Below are positions 8,610 through 27,987 of a DNA stretch of 45,548 nt, in pieces. The stretch spans positions 1 to 45,548 of the forward strand of contig JAURIJ010000023.1 in the NCBI GenBank assembly GCA_030832825.1. The letters run 5' to 3'. A model generated the notes under the pieces. The model was not told the origin of the DNA. It saw nothing but the letters and a program-made list of their open reading frames with translations, and did not search any database. The position numbers and the translations under genes were made by a program. The stretch comes from Gammaproteobacteria bacterium. GTDB lineage: Bacteria; Pseudomonadota; Gammaproteobacteria; Pseudomonadales; Pseudohongiellaceae. Numbering within the stretch: position 1 is the first letter of the stretch; every line of letters starts with the position of its first letter.

Positions 8610-11501
8610 TCATGCGCCAGGCGCCCAGTCCAACGACACCCATACCTGCCGGCCCCAGGGCACGGACAGTCGGGACTCGAATCCCCCGATGATGGCGAAG
8701 CGTTGCGGCCGGATGTCAAACAGGTTGCTCACCCCGGCACTCAGGGTGATCTCGCTGTCAAAGTATTGATCGAAGACATAGGCGTACTGCACATTGGTGA
8801 TGGTCTCTGCCTCGATCGTGCGGTCAGTCATCGCGATGAAGCCCTGCCCATAGCGGTCCACCGGGCGATCATCGAACAGGACGCTGTGCCGGTAATTGGC
8901 CGACACGCCCGCGCTGTGATTGCCGTTGAACCAGCCGACACGCAGGCTGCCCTTGACCTTCGGCAGCGGTGGCACGATGCCGGTCTGCGCGTTCTGCTTG
9001 CCCAGGGCGTCGATGGTGATGCCGACGTTGTCCTCGTACTCGTAGCTCAGGTAATAGGACCCCTCCAGCGTGGTGGTGAAAGTGCCCAGTCTGCCCGCGT
9101 CATAGGTGTAGCGAGCCTTGGCATCCAGCAGGTCGATGAACACCGATGCGATGTTCTGAGCCTGCCGGAAGATGGTATCCACCGACATGTCGGCGGGGTC
9201 GCGCAGCACCGGATTGCCCGGCCCGGCGATGGAGCGCAGATAGGCCACGGCAGCGGCATTGTCGGCGGGATTGGCCGGGTTGTAGGTGGACTCTGTCTTG
9301 CCCACTGCGGCCAGGAACTCGCGGAACTGGTCGTAGACCGTGTCGGTATCGTCCAGGGTACGGATCCGGTCGATGTACTTCACGCTCTGGTAGTCCATGC
9401 TCACGCTGAGATTCTCGATGCCCTCGTAGGTGAAGCCGATATTGCGAATGGTCGAGGTCTCCGGCGCCAGATTCGGGTTGCCGGCCTGGCAGGTGGAGGA
9501 GCCGATCAGCGAGGCGTTGAAGAACGGGTCATTCCCCGAGAACGCTTCGCCACACAGCTCATTCGGAATGAACGGTCTGGCCTGCACCGGTGTCGGCGCG
9601 AGGAAGCTCTCGCCCCAGCTGGTGCGCAGCGCCAGCCCGTCCATCACTTCCCAGCGCAGCGCCACCTTGGGTGTGGTGGCCTTGAGCCCGAAGTCCTTGA
9701 ACTCCTCGTGACGCACGGCTGCCTGCAGGGTCAGAGGCTCCAGGATCGGCACTTCAGCCTCGAGGAACACGGCACGCACTTCGCTGAAGTAGGTCGCGTC
9801 CTTGCGTACCGGGGTCGTGATGTCCACGTAGTAGTTGATGCGATTGGCCGACAGCGGATTGGCAAAATCCTGGTCGGTGGTATCGCGCCACTGGTAGCCC
9901 GTGGCGATGGAGACGGCGCCCGCCGGCAGGTCGAACACCTCCCCCGTCACTGTGACTTCGGCGATGTCCAGATATCCGCGGCTGGATGTCAGCTGAATGG
10001 GTTCGTAGAGCCAGTCCATCATCTCCAGCGTGTTGTCGGTGACGCCCTTGACGTAATACGGGGAGCGCGGATCAGAACTGACAAAGGGATTGAACCACTG
10101 ATTCCCCGTCGGCCCTCCCTTGCCCATCAGCGCCAACTGGAACTTGGGCAGATGCAGATTGCCGCTCATGGAGCGCGAGCGCACCTTTCGCTCCTGGCGG
10201 GAGTAGTAGGCATAGCCGGTCCAGGTGTCGCTCAGGTCGAAGCGAGTGCCCAGCTTGATGCGATTCGAGCTGGTGTCGCTGCCGCCGTCAGTCTCACCGA
10301 ATTCGCTGATCCAGCGCGGCGTGACGCCAAGGCCGGAGGACGGGCGCCACAAATAGGGCACCACGTCGAAGCCGAAGGTATTGGCCGGGTGACTGGCCGG
10401 AATGAACAGCACGTTGCGGTTGTTCGGGTTCAGCGCCGTGACAACGCCCTTGGTGCCCTCGTCCAGCAGATAGTTCCAGTTGCCGGTCAGCTCGAACTGC
10501 ACGGAGTCGTTCATGTCCCAGGTGACGTTCTGATAGAGGTTGTACTCCGTCATGCCTCGGGAATACGGGTAGGTATGCGTGTAGTTGTACCAGCAGGTGC
10601 GATTGCTCCCTGTGCCAGTGATGACGCCACTGGGCAGGGCGCCGCGTTTGGTGCGATCCTCCAGCCCCTGATTGAAGGTGCCGCAGCTCGGATCGGGCAG
10701 ATTGCCGCCCACGGTGCGCCCGCGGTGCAATTCTCCCAGCCTGGGTGTTGCTCCAGACACGCGGCGATAGGTGCCGGGATTGCCGGAACCGGACGAGCCA
10801 TCCGCCATCTCCCATTCGCGCGGCCGCTCATGCATCCCAAGCCGCGTGCGCTTGCGGGCGTCGAAGGCCCCGACATAATTGATGCCATTGTCGAAGCTCT
10901 TGCCCCAGAGCAGAGAGACATTGCCTTCCTCCTGGCCGCCCTCCTCCGGCGTCTGGTAATAGGCGCGCGCCCGAAAGCCGTCGAACTCCTTGATGGGAAT
11001 CATGTTGACCACGCCTGCCACGGCATCGGAGCCATAGAGCGCGGAACCGCCGTCCAGCACGATCTCGATGCGCGCCACCGCGATGTCGGGAATCATCGCC
11101 GTGACGGAATTGTCGATGCTGCGCACCCCGTCCATCATGCTGAGGGTGCTGTTCTCCCCCAGGCCTCTCAGATTGAAGGTGGTCCCGACGCCACTCTGAT
11201 TGCCCGACGCGCTGGCCAGCACGTTCTGCACATTGTTGGTGTTCTGGGTGAAACTCAGATCCCGGATGTAGTTGGCCATGCTGGGTGCACCGGACTGGTA
11301 GAGCTCGTCCTGGTTGATGGTGGCCACGGGGGAATTCTGCGCGAATGCGCTGTTGCGGATCTAGGAGCCGGTCACGACGACTTCTTCCACTTCCGGATCC
11401 TGGGCAGCTTGCGCCTGCACCAGAACCGGGGTGGCGAATGAAGCAATGAGGCAGGTGTGGATCAACTGGCGCAACTGTGTGCGCCTCGTGTTTGAGTGCA
11501 T
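8610..11501 (-). pseudogene. TonB-dependent receptor interrupted by an amber codon at position 47
   Basis: Outer-membrane TonB-dependent receptor gene of 963 sense-equivalent codons, paralogous along its whole length to the receptor 11767-14670. ATG 11501 has the spacing GGAG-6 nt-ATG and gives a signal peptide. The plug then starts E-V-E-E-V-V-V-T-G-S and is followed by TAG at 11363-11361, where the paralogue has Tyr (T-G-S-Y-I-R-N-S). After the stop the frame is fully open to the C-terminus (Q-V-W-V-S-L-D-W-A-P-G-A), with plug and barrel intact. Without suppression only a 46-residue signal fragment is made. No strong internal start with a signal peptide exists, so it is most likely a recent nonsense pseudogene; a base-call error is the alternative. 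Confidence 0.85.
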
Positions 11502-11766: not shown

Positions 11767-14670
11767 TCAGGCCCCGGGTGCCCAGTCAAGAGACACCCAG
11801 AACTGACGACCCCAAGGGGTTGAGAGACGAGTTTCCGCCCCGCCAATGATCGCCAGGCGCTGGGGACGCTTGTCGAACAGATTGTTGATGCCCACGCTCA
11901 GCGTGATCTCGCTGTCGAAGTACTGATCGAAGACGTGTGCAAAGCGCGCGTCGACGATGTACTCGCCACGGATGTTGCGGGGCGGGTTCTTGGTGTTGTC
12001 GCCATCCTCCGGGTAGAAGTCCACCACCTGGTCATCGAACTTGATGGTGCTCCAGTAGTTGGCCGAAATCGACGCGCTCTGATTGCCTCGGAACCAGTTC
12101 ACACGTGCGTTGGCCTTGACCTCGGGCAACGGTGGCACGATACCGGTACGACCATTCTGCTTGCCCACCGCTTCGACACGAATCCCGTTCAGATCCATGT
12201 AGTCGTAGGTGTCATACAGTGTGGTCTGCACAGTGGTGGTGAAGCTGCCCAGGTTGTCCGTATCGAACTGGTACTGCGCCTTCACATCGAGCAGGTCGAT
12301 CCAGACCGAGCTGATGTTGGCGGACTGCACGAACAGCCTGGAGACGGAACCGTTGGGGTAGCGCTGGATCGAGTAGCCCGGAATGGCAGCCTTGGCGGCC
12401 AGCCAGGCATCCGCTGCGGCGCGGGTCGCAGAACCCGGCACGGCGGAGTAGGACGAGCGGGCAATGCCAGTCTCACCGAGGAACTGCTGGAACTGGAAGC
12501 CCACGGTGTCCTGCTGACTCAGGGTACGGATACGGTCGACGTATTCGATCTGTTGATAGTCCATGGACAGGTTGAGCCCTTCCAGGAAATTCCCGGTAGG
12601 TTCCCACGTGAAGCCGATGTTTTGGATGGTCGAGGTTTCCGGCTGCAGGTTCGGGTTGCCGGACTGACACCAGATACCGCCGATCAGCGGGGTGTTGGTG
12701 AACTCATCCAGACCACTGAACATGTCGGCACAACGGTCATCCGCCACGAAGGGTCGGGCCTGGAAGGGCGAGGGCGCCAAGAAGCTTTCGCCCCATGAGG
12801 CACGCAGCGCCAGACTCGGCATTGCTTCCCAGCGCAGCGAGACCTTGGGCGTGGTGGCTTCCAGACCGAAGTCCTTGAACTGCTCGTGACGCACGGCGAA
12901 CTGCGCGGCCAGGGTTTCCAGGATAGGCACTTCGATCTCGGCAAATACGGAGCGGGTCTCCGACACATAGACGGCGTCCTTCAGCCGCTCGCCCAACACC
13001 TGACTGTTAGCGTAATCCTCACCCAGCTTGTCGTAGGGGTCGGCATAGTCTTCGATCCGGATGTCGCGCCACTGATAGCCGAAGGCCATGGAGACGGCTC
13101 CTGCCGGCAGGTCGAACACCTCGCCGGTCGCCAGCGTCTCGAACACATCCAGAAAGTTGCGCCCGCCCAGACGATTGGGGTTGTAGGACATCATCCAGTC
13201 GATCAACTCCTGCGAGTTGTCGGTCTTGCCCTTCACATAGCGCGAGGAGTAGGGCGACTGTGAGCCGAAGGGGTTGAACCACTGATTGCCGTTCGGTCCT
13301 CCCAGGCCGGACATGGCGAGCTGCAGACGGCTGGACGTCACCACGTGCTCGTCGGAGGTGTTCTTGTCCTCCTGGATCGAGTAGTAGGTGTAGCCCGTCC
13401 ACGTCCCTGCCAGATCATACTCGGCGCTGAACTTCAGACGATTGAGCGCATAGTCGGAACTGACTTTCTTGGAGGAATCGGTGTAATAGCTGGACGGCAG
13501 ATTCGCTCCCGTGTTGCCGAACACACGCCAGCTCCAAGGGGTCAGGTCCACTCCCCACGGGTTGGCAGGATGATTGGCCGGGATCTTCATCACCGCACGG
13601 TCATTGCCGCCGTTAGGCGAGGTGCCCGTGGTGCGGTTCTGGTTGTAGCGGTAATGATTGTTCAGCGTCACATTGAGGCGCAGCCAGTCGGCGGCGTCGT
13701 AGGACAGCGTGTTGTAGAGGTTCCAGTTGACCTCGTGACGCGAATACGCGTGCTGGATACTGTACTCATAGGTACAGTTGCCGTTGTAGATGGTGCCAGA
13801 GGGGTTCGTGTACTGGCTCTCGCCGTGGGCGTCGAAACCCGCATTGAATTTGCCGCAATCCGGATCCAGCAGGACTGGGCCTGTGCTGGTGCCGCCGTGG
13901 GGCTGCAGCAGCTGCACGCCAGGCTTGGCGTTGATCAGACGTCGGAAAGAGCCGACGGGGCCCGAGTTCGAGGCATTGTTGGAATTCTTCCACTCACGCG
14001 GACGCTCGTACATCATGAGCGGCGTCTGTTTCTGCCCTTCGAAGGCGCCAACGTACTCGATGCCGTTGTTGAAACTCTTGCCCCACAGCAACGAGCCCGT
14101 GAAGTGCTCCATGGCACCGTCTTCGGTACGCTGATAATAGGTACGGGCACGCAGGCCCTCGAATTCCTTGATCGGGATGATGTTCACCACCCCCGCCACC
14201 GCGTCGGAGCCGTAGAGAGCGGAGCCCCCGTCCAGCACCATTTCCATGCGGCTGATGGCAATCTCCGGCAGACTGGCTGACATCAGCGGACTCAGGGTGC
14301 GAGCGCCGTCGATCAGTGTCAGGGTGGAGTTCTCTCCGAGGCCGCGCAGGTTGAAACTGCTGTTGCCCGTCTGGGCGCCATCGGAAGTTCCCAGCACCAC
14401 GTTGACCACGTTGGTGTTCTGGGTATAGCTGAGATCGCGGATATAGGCTCCCATGCTCGGCGCACCGGACTCCAGAAGGTCTTCCTGGGAAACGGTGTCG
14501 ACGGGGGAGTTCTGGGCAAAGGCACTGTTCCTGATGTAGGAACCTGTCACCACCACCTCCTCAACTTCAGGATCGGTCTGAGCCTGAGCGGAAAGCGGGA
14601 GCACGACGGAAGCGACAAGGCAGGAATGGATCAAGTGACGCAGTTGCCCGCGTCGAGTGAAGTTAAGCAT
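11767..14670 (-). CDS. TonB-dependent receptor, intact
   Basis: A 967-residue outer-membrane receptor. Order: signal peptide (ends S-A-Q-A-Q near residue 30), plug beginning E-V-E-E-V-V-V-T-G-S-Y-I-R-N-S, plug signature S-S-F-N-L-R-G-L-G-E-N-S-T-L, and L-D-G-G-S-A-L-Y-G-S-D-A-V-A-G-V-V-N-I-I. The barrel ends F-D-K-R-P-Q-R-L-A-I-I-G-G and V-S-L-D-W-A-P-G-A. Such receptors import scarce large substrates using TonB-ExbBD. The substrate cannot be read, and no siderophore or cobalamin genes are nearby. The start at 14670 has GGAG six bases upstream. Its leader is homologous to that of the haem c-copper protein upstream, suggesting co-regulation, and it has its own terminator. Confidence 0.92.
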   Translation of the reverse strand: MLNFTRRGQLRHLIHSCLVASVVLPLSAQAQTDPEVEEVVVTGSYIRNSAFAQNSPVDTVSQEDLLESGAPSMGAYIRDLSYTQNTNVVNVVLGTSDGAQTGNSSFNLRGLGENSTLTLIDGARTLSPLMSASLPEIAISRMEMVLDGGSALYGSDAVAGVVNIIPIKEFEGLRARTYYQRTEDGAMEHFTGSLLWGKSFNNGIEYVGAFEGQKQTPLMMYERPREWKNSNNASNSGPVGSFRRLINAKPGVQLLQPHGGTSTGPVLLDPDCGKFNAGFDAHGESQYTNPSGTIYNGNCTYEYSIQHAYSRHEVNWNLYNTLSYDAADWLRLNVTLNNHYRYNQNRTTGTSPNGGNDRAVMKIPANHPANPWGVDLTPWSWRVFGNTGANLPSSYYTDSSKKVSSDYALNRLKFSAEYDLAGTWTGYTYYSIQEDKNTSDEHVVTSSRLQLAMSGLGGPNGNQWFNPFGSQSPYSSRYVKGKTDNSQELIDWMMSYNPNRLGGRNFLDVFETLATGEVFDLPAGAVSMAFGYQWRDIRIEDYADPYDKLGEDYANSQVLGERLKDAVYVSETRSVFAEIEVPILETLAAQFAVRHEQFKDFGLEATTPKVSLRWEAMPSLALRASWGESFLAPSPFQARPFVADDRCADMFSGLDEFTNTPLIGGIWCQSGNPNLQPETSTIQNIGFTWEPTGNFLEGLNLSMDYQQIEYVDRIRTLSQQDTVGFQFQQFLGETGIARSSYSAVPGSATRAAADAWLAAKAAIPGYSIQRYPNGSVSRLFVQSANISSVWIDLLDVKAQYQFDTDNLGSFTTTVQTTLYDTYDYMDLNGIRVEAVGKQNGRTGIVPPLPEVKANARVNWFRGNQSASISANYWSTIKFDDQVVDFYPEDGDNTKNPPRNIRGEYIVDARFAHVFDQYFDSEITLSVGINNLFDKRPQRLAIIGGAETRLSTPWGRQFWVSLDWAPGA

Positions 14671-14764
14671 GTTTATCTCCGGTTGTTGGCTCTTGCCGCC
14701 ACTTCGCAACAAGGCCTTTATTATTTGGATATCAATAGCTTAGAGCTTTATAAGGCACTACTTC

Positions 14765-14833
14765 ATGACTATCACTGGAAGACAACAGGCCATTCGACCA
14801 TTCCGGTACAACGATATACAACCATCACACCTT
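14765..14833 (-). promoter_or_regulatory. Shared leader element with GTTGTA direct repeats (receptor copy)
   Basis: On the minus strand the core is GGTTGTATATCGTTGTACC (14823-14805), two GTTGTA half-sites ten bases apart, one helical turn. It is identical to the core at 16602-16584. The surrounding blocks C-C-A-T-A-A-G-G-T-G-T and C-C-A-G-T-G-A-T-A-G-T-C-A-T are also shared. The core lies 135 bp from the receptor start. This looks like an activator or repressor site plus promoter; the protein that binds is not known. Confidence 0.6.
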
Positions 14834-15005
14834 ATGGCCAGCGATGTAAGCAGGCGCGGGCATGAATTGCAATCCCCGAGACGCTCAGTCACAACTTGTC
14901 ACATATTTCCATGGAACGGTCGTTCGACACAGCACCACAGTTCACCTATGGAAAAATGGGGGCGCATGTGGCGCCACGATAAAAACGGGATTCTGGAATA
15001 GAAAT

Positions 15006-15036
15006 CGGGCGCCGCATGTTGCCACACGGTGCCCGA
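15006..15036 (-). terminator. Hairpin after the first haem c-copper gene
   Basis: On the minus strand the GGGC-ACC-G arm pairs with C-GGC-GCCC around T-G-T-G-G-C-A-A-C-A, which itself can fold as T-G-T/A-C-A. G-A-T-T-T-C-T-A-T follows. The same hairpin, with compensating small changes, is found after the paralogous gene at 16780-16809, which supports a real function. The T-tract is weak. Confidence 0.55.
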
Positions 15037-15060
15037 CCCTTACGAGGAGACTGCTGTTGC

Positions 15061-16440
15061 TTACTGGCCTGCGACCGAGCGCTGCTTGGCCGCTTCACGC
15101 TGAGCCACGATTTCCTGGTAGCCCGCCTCGTCCAGATGCGTGATGGCCAGCCAGGCGTGAGTCATTTCATCCGCAGTACGGCTTCCGGCCACCACCCAGA
15201 AATCCGGATCAGGATTGTTCGGGTTGTTGGCTGTGTTGTCGTACCACTGCTTGATGACCATCACGGCGCCGGTCGGAATGAGCGGCGCAACATCGGCTTC
15301 GTACAGGTGGCTGTGGTGCCAAGTGGCGCTCCAGTTGGAGATCTGGCTGATCTGCTCAGTGCGACCAGTCGCCGGGTAGTAGATCTCCAGCGAGGCGGCG
15401 CGCATGCGCAGGTGGCCGTGCGGCTGGAAGCTGTCTACACGCACCGGGTGATCGAACGAATGGAAGCCCTGGGTCATTGCCGTGCCGTGTGGCGGCACCA
15501 CCAGTTCGCCTTCGTCCAGCCTGTAGAGCTTCAGGTCCTGCTTGTACTTGGCCTGAGTCTCGTAGCCTTCCGGGTGCAGCCAGATGCCGATCTCGACGAC
15601 ATTGTCCTCAATCACGGTACCGGGAGCGGTGGCGCCAACACCGCCGGGGAACAGATGGATGTCCCAGCGAATGCGGGCATTGGCCGGCAGTGTGCGGCAC
15701 ACGCCGTCCGGAGCGATTTCGCCCCACTTGCCCATCGCGTACTCGGTCAGCATGCCGACATCTTCGTACTCGCCGTCAGCATTCATGATCTCGACATTGG
15801 AGTTGGCGTGGTGCACCACGGCCTTGGCATTGCCGGCCGGCTTCACCTGGATCGCCTTGATGCAGCGGTCAGTGGTGAGGCCTGTTTCCACGAAGGGACG
15901 GTGCCACATGTCATTGCCGAGAGCCGGCACGTCGATGGGCTCGGAGTCCAGAATCAGGGTGGGCTGGCCGAACTGGGCCGCAAAGGTCCACTCATCGCTG
16001 GCCGGCAGGTTGGCCACCGGGTGCGAACGATCTCCCCAATCCCCTTCCGGAGCGCCTTGGGCGACCCACTGGGTGATGGTGTTGATTTCTTCATCCGACA
16101 GACGCCAATCGCCCTGCAGCTCCTGAATGCCGATATGATCGTCGTAGGAGTACGGCGGCATTTCCTTGTTGGCGACACGCATGCCGATCAGGGGAGCCCA
16201 CGGGCGCACCTGCTCGTAATTGGTGAGCTGCATCGGGCCGATGGCGCCTTCGCGGTGGCAGACAACACAGTTGTCCGTAATGATTTGCGCGACGTGATCC
16301 GCATAGGTGATGGCTCCGGAATCAATGGACAGACCGGACTGCCCCTGAGCCTGACCACTCATTCCCATTACTGCCAGCACGGCAGCGCCAAGAGCCGCTT
16401 TACCGGTGTGCCGGACGCACCACCGTTGTTTCATCTGCAT
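15061..16440 (-). CDS. Secreted haem c / copper type II (PHM-like) monooxygenase-like protein, copy A
   Basis: A 459-residue exported protein; the signal peptide ends near residue 32. Residues about 42-135 form a small c-type cytochrome domain with haem motif CVVCH (58-62), likely axial Met94 (K-E-M-P-P-Y) and the W-V-A-Q-G-A-P-E-G end. The rest resembles the copper type II ascorbate-dependent monooxygenase (PHM/DBM) fold. Candidate CuH ligands are His210, His211 (A-V-V-H-H-A-N) and His262 (W-D-I-H-L-F). Candidate CuM ligands are His341, His343 (F-Q-P-H-G-H-L-R) and Met426 (T-A-D-E-M-T-H). So all six copper ligands are visible and electrons could arrive through haem. Substrate unknown. Start 16440 follows AAAGGAG. 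Nearly identical to 16839-18212. Confidence 0.82.
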   Translation of the reverse strand: MQMKQRWCVRHTGKAALGAAVLAVMGMSGQAQGQSGLSIDSGAITYADHVAQIITDNCVVCHREGAIGPMQLTNYEQVRPWAPLIGMRVANKEMPPYSYDDHIGIQELQGDWRLSDEEINTITQWVAQGAPEGDWGDRSHPVANLPASDEWTFAAQFGQPTLILDSEPIDVPALGNDMWHRPFVETGLTTDRCIKAIQVKPAGNAKAVVHHANSNVEIMNADGEYEDVGMLTEYAMGKWGEIAPDGVCRTLPANARIRWDIHLFPGGVGATAPGTVIEDNVVEIGIWLHPEGYETQAKYKQDLKLYRLDEGELVVPPHGTAMTQGFHSFDHPVRVDSFQPHGHLRMRAASLEIYYPATGRTEQISQISNWSATWHHSHLYEADVAPLIPTGAVMVIKQWYDNTANNPNNPDPDFWVVAGSRTADEMTHAWLAITHLDEAGYQEIVAQREAAKQRSVAGQ

Positions 16441-16541
16441 GTTCATCTCCTTTGCTTGACGAGTTGCCGGCCAGTGCGCAGCCGCGCACCAGACAGACAT
16501 TTTTATTGGAATTCCAACAACTTAGCTAGAGATAAGGAAGG

Positions 16542-16612
16542 CAATGACTATCACTGGATGACTGCATGCGGGGGGGCAAATCCGGTACAACGATATACAA
16601 CCATGACACCTT
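16542..16612 (-). promoter_or_regulatory. Shared leader element with GTTGTA direct repeats (haem c-copper copy)
   Basis: Carries the same 19-bp core as the receptor leader, at 16602-16584, exact in all positions. It also carries the flanking blocks C-C-A-T-A-A-G-G-T-G-T and C-C-A-G-T-G-A-T-A-G-T-C-A-T, and lies 144 bp from the start codon of copy A. Between core and gene both leaders share an A/T-rich stretch (T-G-C-C-T-T-A-T, A-G-C-T-A, A-T-A-A-A), where the promoter probably sits. Confidence 0.6.
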
Positions 16613-16779
16613 ATGGCTCGGAATGTACGCCTTCGCGCTCGGCAAAAGCAAACGGATTATTCCAGAGTCACATTTTGTTACATATTTCAGCGAGACTTCT
16701 GCCGTCATCCAAAGGGGGCGCTTTGCTGTGGGCGTCGTTCTGTATTGGCTGGCCACGGTACATGGCGGGACATAGAAAC

Positions 16780-16809
16780 CGGGCGCCGCATGTTGCCACA
16801 CGACGCCCG
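16780..16809 (-). terminator. Hairpin after the second haem c-copper gene
   Basis: The arms GGGCGTCG and CGGCGCCC (minus strand) enclose T-G-T-G-G-C-A-A-C-A. G-G-T-T-T-C-T-A-T follows. It lies about 30 bp past the stop of copy B and is homologous to the hairpin at 15006-15036. Confidence 0.55.
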
Positions 16810-16838
16810 ACCCTTTACGAGGATACTGCTACTGTTGC

Positions 16839-18212
16839 TTACTGACCTGCAACGGAACGCTGCTTGGCCTCTTCACGCTGAGCCACGATCTCCTGGTAGC
16901 CTTCTTCGTCCAGGTGAGTGATCGCCAGCCAGGCGTGGGTCATCTCGTCAGCGGTACGGCTGCCTTCAACCACCCAGAAATCCGGATCAGGATTGTTCGG
17001 GTTGTTGGCAGTGTTGTCATACCACTGCTTGATCACCATCACGGCGCCAGTCGGGACCAGCGGAGCGACATCCGGGGCGTACAGGTGGCTGTGGTGCCAC
17101 GTGGCGCTCCAGTTGGAGATCTGGCTGATCTGCTCAGTGCGACCAGTCGCCGGGTAGTAGATCTCCAGCGCGGCAGCACGCATGCGCAGGTGGCCGTGCG
17201 GCTGGAAGCTGTCGATGCGAACCGGGTGGTCAAACGAGTGGAAACCCTGGGTCATCGCAGTGCCGTTCGGAGGAACGATCAGCTCGCCCTGGTTCAGGCG
17301 ATACAGTGCCAGATCCTGCTTGTAGCGGACTTGACTCTCGTAGCCTTCCGGGTGCAGCCAGATACCGATCTGCACGACGTTGTCTTCAATCACTGTGCCG
17401 GGAGCTGTCGCTCCGACGCCGCCGGGGAACAGGTGAATGTCCCAGCGAATGCGGGCATTGGCCGGCAGTGTGCGGCACACGCCTTCCGGAGCGATCTCGC
17501 CCCACTTGCCCATGGCGTATTCGGTCAGCATGCCGACATCTTCGTATTCGCCGTCAGCATTCATGATCTCGACGTTGGAGTTGGCGTGGTGCACCACGGC
17601 CTTGGCATTGCCGGCCGGCTTCACCTGGATCGCCTTGATGCAGCGGTCAGTGGTAAGCCCGGTTTCCACGTAGGGACGGTGCCACATGTCGTTACCGATA
17701 GCAGGCACGTCGATGGGCTCTGAGTCCAGAATGACACTGGGCTGACCGAACTGGGCAGCGAAGCTCCACTCATCGGCATCCGGCAGGTTGGCTACCGGGT
17801 GCGAACGATCGCCCCAATCGCCTTCCGGAGCGCCTTGGGCGACCCACTGGGTGATGGTGTTGATTTCTTCGTCAGACAGACGCCAGTCACCCTGGAGATC
17901 CTGAATTCCGATATGGTCGTCGTAGGAGTAAGGAGGCATCTCCTTGTTCGCAACGCGCACGCCGATCAGAGGCGCCCAGGGGCGGACCTGATCGTAATTG
18001 GTGAGCTGCATCGGGCCGATGCCGCCTTCGCGGTGGCACACAACGCAGTTGTCGGTGATGATCTGGGCGACGTGATCAGCATAGGTCACTTCGCCGGATT
18101 CAATGCCCAGGCCGGACTGCGCCTGTGCGTTCGTTCCCAGCACCGCCAGAACGGCGAAGCCAAGAGCGGCCTTCCCGGTTTGCCTGATGCTCAAACGCTG
18201 CTTCAACTTCAT
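16839..18212 (-). CDS. Secreted haem c / copper type II (PHM-like) monooxygenase-like protein, copy B
   Basis: A 457-residue paralogue of copy A, nearly identical from about residue 42 on. Haem motif CVVCH at 56-60 with Met92 downstream; copper ligand candidates His208, His209, His260, His339, His341 and Met424 are all retained. The signal peptide (ends A-N/A-Q-A-Q) differs more from copy A than the mature part does. ATG 18212 has AAGGAGAGGATC before it; the frame extends 34 codons further upstream without a ribosome site or signal peptide. Copy B does not have the GTTGTA leader. Instead a perfect FNR-type palindrome lies about 190 bp upstream. The two copies may thus be isoforms used under different conditions. 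Substrate unknown. Confidence 0.82.
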   Translation of the reverse strand: MKLKQRLSIRQTGKAALGFAVLAVLGTNAQAQSGLGIESGEVTYADHVAQIITDNCVVCHREGGIGPMQLTNYDQVRPWAPLIGVRVANKEMPPYSYDDHIGIQDLQGDWRLSDEEINTITQWVAQGAPEGDWGDRSHPVANLPDADEWSFAAQFGQPSVILDSEPIDVPAIGNDMWHRPYVETGLTTDRCIKAIQVKPAGNAKAVVHHANSNVEIMNADGEYEDVGMLTEYAMGKWGEIAPEGVCRTLPANARIRWDIHLFPGGVGATAPGTVIEDNVVQIGIWLHPEGYESQVRYKQDLALYRLNQGELIVPPNGTAMTQGFHSFDHPVRIDSFQPHGHLRMRAAALEIYYPATGRTEQISQISNWSATWHHSHLYAPDVAPLVPTGAVMVIKQWYDNTANNPNNPDPDFWVVEGSRTADEMTHAWLAITHLDEEGYQEIVAQREEAKQRSVAGQ

Positions 18213-23778: not shown

Positions 23779-24746
23779 GTTCTGTGCGCACCCTGCCCCT
23801 GGGCCTGTGTTCCCTGCTGCTGGCCGGCTGCCTGAGCACCGAGCCGCGTGCGCTGGTGCCCAGCATCACCCTGTCGCCGGAGACGGTCAGCCTGAGCGCG
23901 GGCGAACCGGTCGGCCGCGGCCTCAACTTCGGCATGAGCACGGCGCTGAACGAGAGCGACTCGCTGAGCAACATCACCGTGCTGCCCGGCGTGCGCATTC
24001 GCGCCGTCACCCCCGGCGGGGCCGCCGACCTGGCCGGATTGCGGGCGGGCGACGTGATCCTGCGCATCGACGAGCGGGAAGTGAACCACCCCGATCTGGT
24101 CGAAGCACTGGCGCAGCAGAGCAATGCCGCCGGCGCCTTCGTGCTGGAAGTGCGCCGGGCCACGACCGTGTTTCAGACCACCCTCAATGCCCGCCCGCAG
24201 ACCGACGGACGCGCCGAGCTGGTGGAGCTGTACCGGGCCGACCCGGTGGCCACCCGGGCGGGCTATGTCACCGAGATCTATGACACGGCCGGCGGCGCGC
24301 CGCACTCGGGCGCCCGCATCGTCGAGCTGTTCGCTGACAGCCCCCTGCCCGCCGCCGGGCTCGAGGTGGGCGACACCATCCTGGCGCTTGAAGACATCCC
24401 CGTCACGTCAGCCCAGGACCTGATCACACGCCTGAACACCGAACACGCCCTGGGGGACGAGGTCCGCCTCAGCGTGGCACGGGACACCGCGCTGGCGCTG
24501 GAGAGCTTCGGGCGGGAGGTGCGACTGTGGAGCCCCGGACGCCGGCTCTCCCGGCTCTCCCTCGGCCCGCTGCTGCAGTACGAATCCAGTCTCAGCCCCG
24601 CCCGCACCCAGCTGGCCATAGGCGATCTGTGGCTGTTCTCGCTCTTTCGTTACCGGCACGAAGAAGGCGAGAAGGAATACAGCCTGCTCAGCCTGTTCCG
24701 CTTCGCCACCGGCTATGGCGAACTGGTAGAGGAAGCGCAGCCATGA
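23775..24746 (+). CDS. Lipoprotein with two PDZ domains
   Basis: A 323-residue protein starting at GTG 23775, with AGGAGG upstream and a four-base overlap with the permease. The signal ends L-L-L-A-G-C (lipobox). PDZ-1 is about residues 70-145 (V-T-P-G-G-A-A-D-L-A-G-L-R-A-G-D-V-I-L). PDZ-2 is about 185-255 (A-D-S-P-L-P-A-A-G-L-E-V-G-D-T-I-L). No protease domain is present, unlike DegP/DegS, so it probably binds exposed C-termini and delivers or tethers partners. The tail (about 260-323) is Arg/Tyr/Phe rich and unassigned. An adaptor role for the M16 peptidase or ABC transporter is inference from context. Confidence 0.85.
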   Translation: MSSVRTLPLGLCSLLLAGCLSTEPRALVPSITLSPETVSLSAGEPVGRGLNFGMSTALNESDSLSNITVLPGVRIRAVTPGGAADLAGLRAGDVILRIDEREVNHPDLVEALAQQSNAAGAFVLEVRRATTVFQTTLNARPQTDGRAELVELYRADPVATRAGYVTEIYDTAGGAPHSGARIVELFADSPLPAAGLEVGDTILALEDIPVTSAQDLITRLNTEHALGDEVRLSVARDTALALESFGREVRLWSPGRRLSRLSLGPLLQYESSLSPARTQLAIGDLWLFSLFRYRHEEGEKEYSLLSLFRFATGYGELVEEAQP

Positions 24747-26290
24747 GCGCCGTCCGTCGCCCGCTGGGCGTGCTGTTCGCGGCCCTGCTGCTGGGCAGCT
24801 CCGCCCAAGCCCAGCCCAATCACATGGCCTCGGAAATCGGCCTGGGTGAGTGGCCCGATGACGTGCTGCGCGAGGACATGGACGGCGACGCCCGTCTCGA
24901 CCTGATCGTGCCGCACTGGAGCGCGGAGGCTGGACGCGAGCTGCTGGTCTACCTGCAGGACGCCGGCGGCCACTTCCCGGCCGAGCCCTCGCGCCGAGTG
25001 GAGATCAAGCCCGAGATCATCGCCTTCGCACTGGCTGACCTGCGCCCGGAACCCGGCCGCGAGCTGCTGCTGTTTGCGGGCAATGGTGTGTTCAGTCTCT
25101 CCTCCGCCATTGCCAGCTACACCGACAATCTGCGCCCGCTGTTCGACTGGCCGCTGGCCGCCTCGGTGCCCGACCGCCGCCGCGTGCTCTACCTGCCCGG
25201 CCTGCCGGACATGAACGGTGACGGCCATGCCGACCTGCTGCTGCCGGGCCGCGACGACTATGGCCTGTTCCTGGGCGGGCCGGACGAGCGCTTCACCCTC
25301 GCGCACCGCTTCAGCACGATCAATCAGGAACTCGACCCGGGCGAAGTGCCACTGGGCGGCGCGCGGCTCGACACGCAACTGGCGATCAACGAACGCCAGG
25401 GCATCGTGCTCAATGTGCGCGCGCTGGGAGCGAGTGCCTTCGAGGGCTTCCTGTCGTCCTGGCAGGACAGCGACACCACCACGCTGCTCGAAGCCGAGCA
25501 CTGGCAGCCGGCGGCGGTGGCCGCCCGCATGAACGACGATGATCAACAGGACATCGTGTTCATGAACATCGGCAATGACCTGTACGGCCAGATCAACATC
25601 CTGCAGCAGGATGCCGAGGGCGGCTTCGCCGCCACGCCTGACTGGCGCGGCCCCATCGACACGCGCGGCGACATTCGCCTGCTGGACGTCAACGGAGATG
25701 GCCGCTTGGACGTGCTGCGCATCCTCGACAATTCCAATGAATGGACCGTGCAGTTCCACCTGAACCAGAACGGCAGCTTCCGCCTCGACCAGCCCGACCA
25801 GGTCATGCGCTTCTCGGGGTATGACCTCACCCTGAGCGTCACCGACATCGCCGGAGACGGCCGCCCGGCGCTGAGCATCAGCTACTACACGATTCCGGTG
25901 GTCAATGCCGTGCGCAATGCCAGCATCGTGCGCTCGCAGCTGCTGTACGCCCCCGGCAGCGAGCCCGGCGAAGTCTTCAGCGCGCGGCCCGCGTTCCGGC
26001 TCGACGAGAATTTCTCTGCCGAGGCCGTGCGGGGCCTGTCGGCGCAGATCGATCTGCAGACCGATCTGGATGGCGACGGCCGCCGCGACGCCATCGCCCT
26101 GGCTCCGGACGGCACGCTGACAGCGCGGGCCATCGACGCCGGCCTGCAGTTTGCCGCCACCCCCTTCTGGCAGTACGTGCCCACCCGCTCCGTGTTGCGT
26201 TTCGACGTGCAGGACATGAACGGCGACGGGGTGGCCGATCTGCTGCTGTATCACTCCACCGCCATGACCCTGCTGGTATCCACGCCATGA
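24743..26290 (+). CDS. Secreted FG-GAP/VCBS-repeat propeller protein 1
   Basis: A 515-residue protein with a signal peptide ending S-S-A-Q-A-Q. It has at least five calcium-binding FG-GAP/VCBS loops of the D-x-D/N-G-D-x-x-x-D-L type: D-M-D-G-D-A-R-L-D-L, D-M-N-G-D-G-H-A-D-L, D-V-N-G-D-G-R-L-D-V, D-L-D-G-D-G-R-R-D-A and D-M-N-G-D-G-V-A-D-L. These are spaced as blades of a beta-propeller covering nearly the whole mature chain. No catalytic motif seen; such propellers bind ligands or proteins in the periplasm or at the surface. ATG 24743 overlaps the PDZ gene stop, and its own stop overlaps the next start (ATGA). Confidence 0.85.
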   Translation: MSAVRRPLGVLFAALLLGSSAQAQPNHMASEIGLGEWPDDVLREDMDGDARLDLIVPHWSAEAGRELLVYLQDAGGHFPAEPSRRVEIKPEIIAFALADLRPEPGRELLLFAGNGVFSLSSAIASYTDNLRPLFDWPLAASVPDRRRVLYLPGLPDMNGDGHADLLLPGRDDYGLFLGGPDERFTLAHRFSTINQELDPGEVPLGGARLDTQLAINERQGIVLNVRALGASAFEGFLSSWQDSDTTTLLEAEHWQPAAVAARMNDDDQQDIVFMNIGNDLYGQINILQQDAEGGFAATPDWRGPIDTRGDIRLLDVNGDGRLDVLRILDNSNEWTVQFHLNQNGSFRLDQPDQVMRFSGYDLTLSVTDIAGDGRPALSISYYTIPVVNAVRNASIVRSQLLYAPGSEPGEVFSARPAFRLDENFSAEAVRGLSAQIDLQTDLDGDGRRDAIALAPDGTLTARAIDAGLQFAATPFWQYVPTRSVLRFDVQDMNGDGVADLLLYHSTAMTLLVSTP

Positions 26291-27987
26291 CGCTGCTGAC
26301 CCGCCTGTTGCCGGCCCTGCTGCTGCCCCTGTCCTTGAGTCCCGCGCTGCTGGCGCAAGAGAGCGACACGCTGCCGGGTTATCGCAGCCTGCCTTTCACG
26401 TTGCCAGCCGACACCGAGCGACTGCTGCTGGTGGATGCCGATCAGGACGGCCTGACCGACGTGCTGGCCGTGGCTCCTTCGCGCTTCAGCCTGTATTTCC
26501 AGCGCACTTCTGCCACGGGCGGCGGCTTCGATTTCAGCGCGCCGGATACCGCCATCCAGCTCGAAGGCAGCAGCATCGGCTGGGAGCTGAGCGAGAACTA
26601 TCCGGATGCCGCTGGCGCGAGTCGCTTCTCCCTGCTCGCCCTGGTCGACGGCAGCCGCGTGCTGCAGTGGCCGATCCGCGAGCGCCAGTTCGCCGACCCG
26701 ATCGACGTGCTGAGCGGGCTCAGTGCTTTCGCTGGCGCGGGCGTCAACCGCCTGCATTTCTCCCGCGACATCAATGCCGACGGCCTGGATGACCTGATCA
26801 TTCCCGGTGCCGGCACCCTGCAGCTGTACATCCGCAACGCCGATGCCAGCTACCAGCCGCCGCTGGCCGTGCAGTCGGACATGCAGATCCGCACCAATCT
26901 GTTCGTGCGCCAGGGCATCGAGCGTGATGTCGGCCAGGCCCTGCGCATTCCGCTGGTGGCCTTGCGCGATGTGAACAGCGACGGCCAGCCGGACCTGATC
27001 TCGGAAACCGAGGAGCGTTTCGATGTCTTCCTGGCCAGTGGCAGCGGCGACTACTTCCCGCAGAGCCCGAGCTATTTCGTCGACCGGCTGGAGATTCGGG
27101 AACGCCTGGGCAATTTCGACTTCGACCAGCTCGACTTCGCCAATCTCACCGGCATGCTGTCACTGACCCACGAGGAGCTGCTGCAGGATGTCGACGGCGA
27201 CGGCATTGACGACTTCGTGCTGCGCGAAGGCGGCAAGGTCTCGCTGTTTTCCGGCACCACCACCGGCATGGATTTCAGTCAGCCGCGCCAGGTGTTGCGC
27301 TCCAGCGGCAATGTGCTCACCACCTTCCTGCACGACGAGAACGAGGACGGCCGGCCGGACCTCTGGCTGTGGCGCGTGGAGTCGATCTCGGTGGGCGATC
27401 TGTTCCTCTGGCTGGCCATCGCCGGCTCCATCAATGTCGAGGCCTTCGTCTACCCGAACGAGGGCGAGAGTTTCGCCCGCCGGCCCTCGCGTCAGCTGAC
27501 GGTGGCGCTGAAGTTCCCCTCGGCGGTGCGCATGCTCAGCTCCGCCATCGACATCCGCGAGCAGGCCCGGGCACTCGAAGAGGCGACGATCCTGCCTACG
27601 GCCATCGCGCAGATCGGCGGCGTGGAATCCACCCGTGACCTTCTGGTGCTGCTGGAGGATCAGGTGCAGGTGTTCATGGGCAGCATGGACGCGCCGGCAG
27701 CGGCGCCGGACGATCAGTTCCTGGCCTCGCTGGACTACAGCCGCAACCGCAACGAGTACGAGATCGACATCCGCCGCTTCATCGACGAATTCGAGATCGA
27801 GCAGAACAGCGAGCTGCGCCGAGTCGAAGGCCGCACGCCCGAGCACCGGCTGGCGTTGCCCGTTGCCATGCGCAATGGCGAGCTGCAGGTGGCCAGCCTC
27901 AACGGCGATGTCCACGACGACGTGTTCGTCTTCCTGCAGCGCGGCCGCGAATCATTGAGCGGCCTGCTGCTGCTCTCGGAGCCCTGA
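26287..27987 (+). CDS. Secreted FG-GAP/VCBS-repeat propeller protein 2
   Basis: A 566-residue protein, distantly similar in plan to the preceding gene, with a signal peptide (MTLLTRLLPALLLPLSLSPA, then L-L-A-Q). FG-GAP-type loops: D-A-D-Q-D-G-L-T-D-V, D-I-N-A-D-G-L-D-D-L, D-V-N-S-D-G-Q-P-D-L, D-V-D-G-D-G-I-D-D-F and D-E-N-E-D-G-R-P-D-L, with a degenerate last loop near the C-terminus. It contains a longer linker between the fifth and sixth loops (about residues 370-530). It is the last gene of the overlapping run. A pair of non-identical propellers in one operon suggests a hetero-complex, which is inference. Confidence 0.85.
   Translation: MTLLTRLLPALLLPLSLSPALLAQESDTLPGYRSLPFTLPADTERLLLVDADQDGLTDVLAVAPSRFSLYFQRTSATGGGFDFSAPDTAIQLEGSSIGWELSENYPDAAGASRFSLLALVDGSRVLQWPIRERQFADPIDVLSGLSAFAGAGVNRLHFSRDINADGLDDLIIPGAGTLQLYIRNADASYQPPLAVQSDMQIRTNLFVRQGIERDVGQALRIPLVALRDVNSDGQPDLISETEERFDVFLASGSGDYFPQSPSYFVDRLEIRERLGNFDFDQLDFANLTGMLSLTHEELLQDVDGDGIDDFVLREGGKVSLFSGTTTGMDFSQPRQVLRSSGNVLTTFLHDENEDGRPDLWLWRVESISVGDLFLWLAIAGSINVEAFVYPNEGESFARRPSRQLTVALKFPSAVRMLSSAIDIREQARALEEATILPTAIAQIGGVESTRDLLVLLEDQVQVFMGSMDAPAAAPDDQFLASLDYSRNRNEYEIDIRRFIDEFEIEQNSELRRVEGRTPEHRLALPVAMRNGELQVASLNGDVHDDVFVFLQRGRESLSGLLLLSEP

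Follow-up and report, generated by a model that had tools for sequence, protein, structure and literature searches.

What is the role of two adjacent genes whose products appear to join a c-type haem to the copper sites of a type II copper monooxygenase? They lie on contig JAURIJ010000023.1 of a Gammaproteobacteria bacterium of the family Pseudohongiellaceae (assembly GCA_030832825.1), and the whole stretch analysed, hereafter designated the window, comprises 45,548 nucleotides (positions 1 to 45,548). Taken together, sequence comparisons and a predicted structure favour, with some confidence, the view that both products, hereafter copies A and B, belong to the PHM/DBH kind of type II copper monooxygenases, are exported to the periplasm and carry a built-in c-type cytochrome whose haem would feed them electrons. 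In animals, DBH (dopamine beta-hydroxylase) serves in the synthesis of noradrenaline and PHM (peptidylglycine alpha-hydroxylating monooxygenase) in the final maturation of peptide hormones.

15061..16440 (-): copy A, 459 residues; export signal (by eye), haem c domain and PHM/DBH-like two-domain copper part
16839..18212 (-): copy B, 457 residues; architecture as copy A

Haem and copper motifs of copies A and B

The ATG of copy A at 16440 is preceded by AAAGGAG, and the N-termini of both copies were read as export signals by eye only. Their haem and copper motifs were located in the sequence and, for the copper part, through alignment A1, a profile of 43 relatives in which positions are those of copy A plus one, and its alignment to DBH.

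16255..16269 (-): CVVCH haem attachment site of copy A, residues 58-62, read from the sequence
18033..18047 (-): CVVCH haem attachment site of copy B, read from the sequence
16159..16161 (-): Met94 of the MPP motif of copy A, putative distal haem ligand by conservation
15808..15813 (-): His210-His211 of copy A, CuH-type (DBH His262/263), from A1 and the DBH alignment
15655..15657 (-): His262 of copy A, CuH-type (DBH His333), same basis
15412..15420 (-): His341-Gly-His343 of copy A, CuM-type (DBH His412/414), same basis
15163..15165 (-): Met426 of copy A, CuM-type (DBH Met487), same basis

Of 203 homologous open frames, the 197 covering 330 or more query positions were retained to assess conservation. 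They comprise a short type, with 146 rows (142 unique) at least 40% identical to copy A, and 51 distant rows. Each of copies A and B has a single CxxCH; both haem-site cysteines occur in 144 of the 146 short-type rows (the other two are gaps in cut fragments), the MPP methionine occurs in all 146, and CxxCH and this methionine are invariant in A1. The CxxCH and conserved downstream methionine of a c-type cytochrome are thus both present, and conservation makes Met94 the likely distal haem ligand. The Pfam model Cytochrom_C gave 18.7 and 20.3 bits with copies A and B, below its cut-off of 21.3.

The copper part was traced by the A1 profile, whose best match among all PDB chains was human DBH (4zel_A, E 4.8e-4) over positions 135-397, corresponding to both copper domains; the second match was the haem segment of hydrazine synthase alpha (E 0.012). 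The six ligand columns of copy A align with 4zel_A chain positions 223, 224, 294, 373, 375 and 448 (our own count), and an offset of 39 turns these into His262, His263, His333, His412, His414 and Met487, all six in register with the DBH copper ligands named in PMC3197665. The three histidines of CuH and the HxH and methionine of CuM that mark a type II copper monooxygenase were therefore found, and the preliminary description, which had reported two tandem proteins with one CxxCH and these six ligands each, was confirmed here by the sequence and the DBH profile alignment.

The complete set of motifs (CxxCH, MPP methionine, HH, H, HxH and M) is intact in 138 of the 142 unique rows, the other four being cut fragments, and a chance origin is very unlikely because of this conservation across rows. 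The window's own genome supplies seven of these rows (A, B, two other copies and three fragments). Among the 135 rows from other genomes, 133 are intact.

The AlphaFold model of copy A (mean per-residue confidence, pLDDT, 85.6; predicted template-modelling score, pTM, 0.82; first 37 residues below 50) retrieved exclusively PHM or DBH as its 30 best Foldseek matches in the PDB, over about 290-330 aligned columns. The 3mll match reached E 7.5e-13 with a template-modelling (TM) score by target of 0.66, the TM-score for 1phm was 0.64, and E stepped from 9.9e-10 to 3.2e-6 at rank 31. By this comparison the model contains two consecutive PHM-type beta-sandwich domains; their absence had been named beforehand as fatal to the proposal, which has survived.

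Further evidence came from a protein outside the window's family.

L106:1480-2724 (-): haem-PHM protein of 414 residues from genome G408, related to the window's genome at phylum level only

A PF03712 search of 299 genomes of the phylum found two positive genomes, that of L106 and the window's own. L106 passes the cut-off of both PF03712 (52.9 bits) and PF01082 (31.7 bits), and a CVACH...MPPY segment precedes the two domains. Its alignment to A1 runs over the full length (hhalign 99.9%, E 4.1e-36) and shows all haem and copper motifs in order. Since this protein from outside the window's family carries both haem and PHM parts, the layout is not unique to that family; in other phyla, PF03712 is probably often found fused to haem or redoxin domains. 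Among 14 control genomes, PF03712 gave three weak below-cut-off matches at E up to 1 and none at E up to 0.001.

Several results weigh against a copper monooxygenase. The profile search proposed in the preliminary description failed, as PF01082 and PF03712 match neither copy at E up to 1; NCBIfam models likewise matched neither at E up to 1, and single-sequence searches of all PDB chains with copies A and B returned nothing at E up to 10. Identity to PHM is only 11-13%, the TM-score falls to about 0.45 when taken by query, which has the haem domain in addition, and from rank 31 the Foldseek matches are unrelated beta-sandwich proteins with E near 1e-5. Finally, the only paralogue of the window's genome to pass PF03712, L009 on contig C55 (24.9 bits in one search, 21.0 against a cut-off of 23 by hmmscan), has HS, R, QxH and I in place of the HH, H, HxH and M ligands. 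Judged from these residues, L009 probably does not function as a copper monooxygenase; it supports homology, not function, and its loss of most ligands lowered our confidence in the proposed function very slightly. A direct PF01082 or PF03712 match was counted as a test of detection and not as a defining trait, and PF03712 matches three of the 43 members of A1 at E up to 0.01. Since the Pfam models miss copies A and B, which connect to the family via L106 and the profile, the two copies are, by sequence comparison, homologues of the type II copper monooxygenase family that lie outside its present models. From the ligands and the modelled copper domains, it appears reasonably probable that they bind two coppers for O2-dependent hydroxylation, as in PHM and DBH.

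To our knowledge, no electron source has been described for bacterial PHM relatives. In the scheme proposed here, the haem (CxxCH and Met94) would be reduced one electron at a time, by a periplasmic donor or by the respiratory chain, and pass each electron on to CuH, and CuM would bind O2 and hydroxylate a small molecule. Because the haem c sits in the same exported chain, it would be a natural electron donor, and the fused haem may do the job that ascorbate does in animals; this replacement is plausible. According to PMC6123673, each copper of PHM receives one reducing equivalent from ascorbate and the two coppers are about 11 angstroms apart.

A peptide's C-terminal glycine is an unlikely substrate. 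The peptide-holding residues of PHM, which we take to be Arg240, Asn316 and Tyr318, fall by counting from the ligands on columns occupied by Gln339 (146/146), His428 and Trp430 (144/146 each, with two gaps). The residues of a peptidylglycine monooxygenase were thus not found, which makes peptide amidation unlikely. Other short-type positions are near-invariant, namely His375 (143/146), His376 (144/146), His378 (145/146) and His428 (144/146). Cys193 and Cys248 are present in 146 of 146 short-type rows and in none of the 51 distant rows, a pattern suggestive of a disulphide.

Distribution and duplication of the family

Matches at E up to 1e-100 occur in 103 of the 137 genomes of the window's family, in five of its eight genera; the A1 profile at E up to 1e-10 detects four of 185 genomes of the class, the window's own included. 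As neither copy A nor copy B is recognised by any NCBIfam model or by a Pfam model over its cut-off, many genomes would gain an annotation. From a GTDB scan, the best 80 of 218 relatives were fetched and yielded 74 loci, so that the neighbourhood survey covers the closest relatives. At least two short-type copies are present in 44 of these loci, and same-strand runs of two to five copies less than 3 kb apart in 39. Members of the family, as read from these arrangements, have been duplicated repeatedly.

Copies A and B, both intact genes, share 89% identity over 465 residues. Their ratio of nonsynonymous to synonymous substitutions (dN/dS 0.091, dS 0.57, NG86 method) is low, and both copies therefore look to be under purifying selection. 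In a tree of 13 copies, copy B has a copy from L012, and not copy A, as its nearest relative (support 1.0), which suggests that the A/B duplication predates the window's species. Two repeats were found beside these genes.

16544..16630 (-): leader segment upstream of copy A, 79% identical to the second leader
14765..14851 (-): second leader segment, downstream of copy A and upstream of a TonB receptor gene, found by sequence comparison

The leader identity of 79% extends over 87 bases. A spacer repeat (16772-16841 against 14998-15063, 89% over 70 columns) starts at the stop codon of each copy, and an inverted repeat was seen in it by eye. From their sequence and placement, leader and spacer repeats are the expected remnant of a tandem duplication of the gene plus its downstream spacer. 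With up to three mismatches, the leader core has two sites in the whole genome, both in the window; among 84 loci, the exact core was found in none besides the two holding the window sites, a search that diverged forms would escape. As the core is confined to the two window sites, the idea of a regulon extending to TonB receptors was discarded. Promoter-like sites (2 against 1.5 expected) and terminator-like sites (4 against 2.6 expected) were near expectation.

The window's genome contains ten matches to copy A, A and B included, and five of them (L005, L006, L008, L009 and L010) carry an extra AhpC/TSA domain over the cut-off. L011 (CAMCRC010000022.1) and L029 (CAMCRC010000005.1) hold copies with 93% and 86% identity to copy A, in records titled as a Klebsiella pneumoniae metagenome-assembled genome. 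Genome G230, with coinciding match coordinates, was placed in the window's genus, and the title of these records is probably wrong.

Neighbouring genes and rival explanations

Two gene types recur around the enzyme genes. The first encodes a secreted two-domain partner of about 310 residues, present in 53 of the 74 loci; in 51 it lies no more than 1 kb upstream of the enzyme, in the same orientation.

L100:1474-2442 (+): example of the secreted partner (alignment A2); no Pfam or weak PKD match, ends near a CCWTN motif

Its model consists of beta-strand domains (pLDDT 85.4); a fold search gave only generic beta-sandwich matches (TM-score at most 0.41 among the best 50), and PKD matched six of the 38 family members. 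As these matches are generic or weak, no function follows from them.

The second type is a divergent redoxin-haem c-PHM-like paralogue, present in 41 of the 74 loci (for example L033, and L008 in the window's genome). Its redoxin domain was confirmed by Pfam in L033, L008 and L010, the others being assigned by length and homology. Both CuM histidines are lost in all 41, usually as RxN or KxN, and the CuH ligands HH and H are kept in 36. In the redoxin part, four of five N-termini read have a single cysteine in CxxM, and L010 has CPAA. This paralogue lacking a CuM site is the most interesting side finding, and it offers a ready natural control for the function proposed for copies A and B.

Such neighbours lend themselves to a reading in which the haem-fed monooxygenase is one component of a module, alongside the secreted partner and the redoxin paralogue, and acts on compounds whatever their route into the periplasm. 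We hold this to be quite possible, if somewhat short of probable. The frequencies above speak for it, as do the partner homologues that adjoin three enzyme paralogues in the window's genome, upstream on contig C17 and downstream on C44 and C69. However, no partner gene adjoins the window pair, of the six partner matches in this genome three (C61, C49 and a 92-residue piece on C8) are on contigs that have no enzyme match, and co-occurrence of partner and enzyme is no proof of a complex. A more elaborate version would be a periplasmic copper hydroxylase module of this one family, with haem c in place of ascorbate, an active haem-PHM protein, an Ig/PKD-like partner and a CuM-dead redoxin-haem-PHM protein acting as an electron or copper relay and not as an enzyme; this remains tentative and rather doubtful.

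The redoxin paralogues also bear on whether copies A and B are monooxygenases at all. These paralogues keep the haem motif and most CuH histidines and have lost every CuM histidine pair, indicating that the scaffold may be used without the full chemistry, and the presumed peptide-holding residues of PHM are not kept; a PHM-fold haem-copper protein of another kind, such as an oxidase, a copper/redox sensor or a copper-handling protein, could account for both. Yet the short type retains the six ligands in every uncut row, which a sensor would not obviously need, and we regard this alternative as unlikely.

The proposal that is least favoured concerns the receptor genes next to copy A.

11767..14712 (-): TonB-dependent receptor adjoining copy A, Pfam plug and barrel over cut-off; its link to the enzymes is local only
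8610..11327 (-): second TonB-dependent receptor, a neighbour

The preliminary description had joined receptors and enzymes into a system of uptake plus oxidation, in which the two receptors import the compound that A and B oxidise, and had stated that the receptors share a leader with copy A. Two same-strand receptors do follow copy A directly, but only the first shares its leader. Uptake plus oxidation now seems improbable: receptors are also found in the close relatives L011 (three) and L023 (two), but a same-strand receptor lies within 1 kb in only three of the 74 loci (L011, L023 and L039) and anywhere in the flanking DNA in 15, both lower bounds because contig ends cut the flanks short, the leader core has only its two genome sites, and the C17 copy (85% identity) has a thiolase-like frame (named from a homologue) and the secreted partner upstream instead of receptors. 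A receptor gene conserved beside the enzyme gene was not found, and in the neighbourhood survey called for by that description both the partner and the redoxin paralogue proved commoner than TonB receptors. The earlier interpretation is thus partly supported as a whole, and its TonB-coupled system is local only.

Other neighbours, counted as protein clusters with one member of each named, include an MFS transporter (27 loci), a GMC oxidoreductase (11) and a Gluconate_2-dh3-like subunit (8); that a GMC dehydrogenase might further oxidise the hydroxylated product is speculation. Elsewhere in the window, two consecutive long frames with FG-GAP repeats were seen at 24527-27987 (+), and a plasmid search came back empty.

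Comparison with known systems

No paper on a bacterial haem c-PHM fusion was found by title or abstract among the matches listed, which is weak evidence of absence given the thin coverage of subscription journals. If the haem-fed monooxygenase reading of copies A and B is true, the electron path could be followed by optical spectra, since a single soluble chain would hold both the haem and the two copper sites.

Compared with DBH and PHM, copies A and B share the two-domain fold and the copper ligands HH and H, then HxH and M, in the same order. They differ in having a haem c domain in front, in their low identity and in being out of reach of the Pfam models. The A/B type also has additional conserved residues (His375, His376, His378 and the pair Cys193/Cys248), and in relation to PHM the peptide-binding Arg240, Asn316 and Tyr318 are replaced by Gln339, His428 and Trp430. 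The redoxin paralogues (L008 and L033) have homologous haem c and PHM-like parts with the CuH ligands mostly kept, and differ in their N-terminal AhpC/TSA domain and the loss of both CuM histidines. L106, in contrast, combines a distant relationship, at phylum level, a length of 414 residues and 21% identity over 364 aligned columns with the same succession as copies A and B: a haem segment with CxxCH and MPP, then the copper domains, with the motif order retained from end to end.

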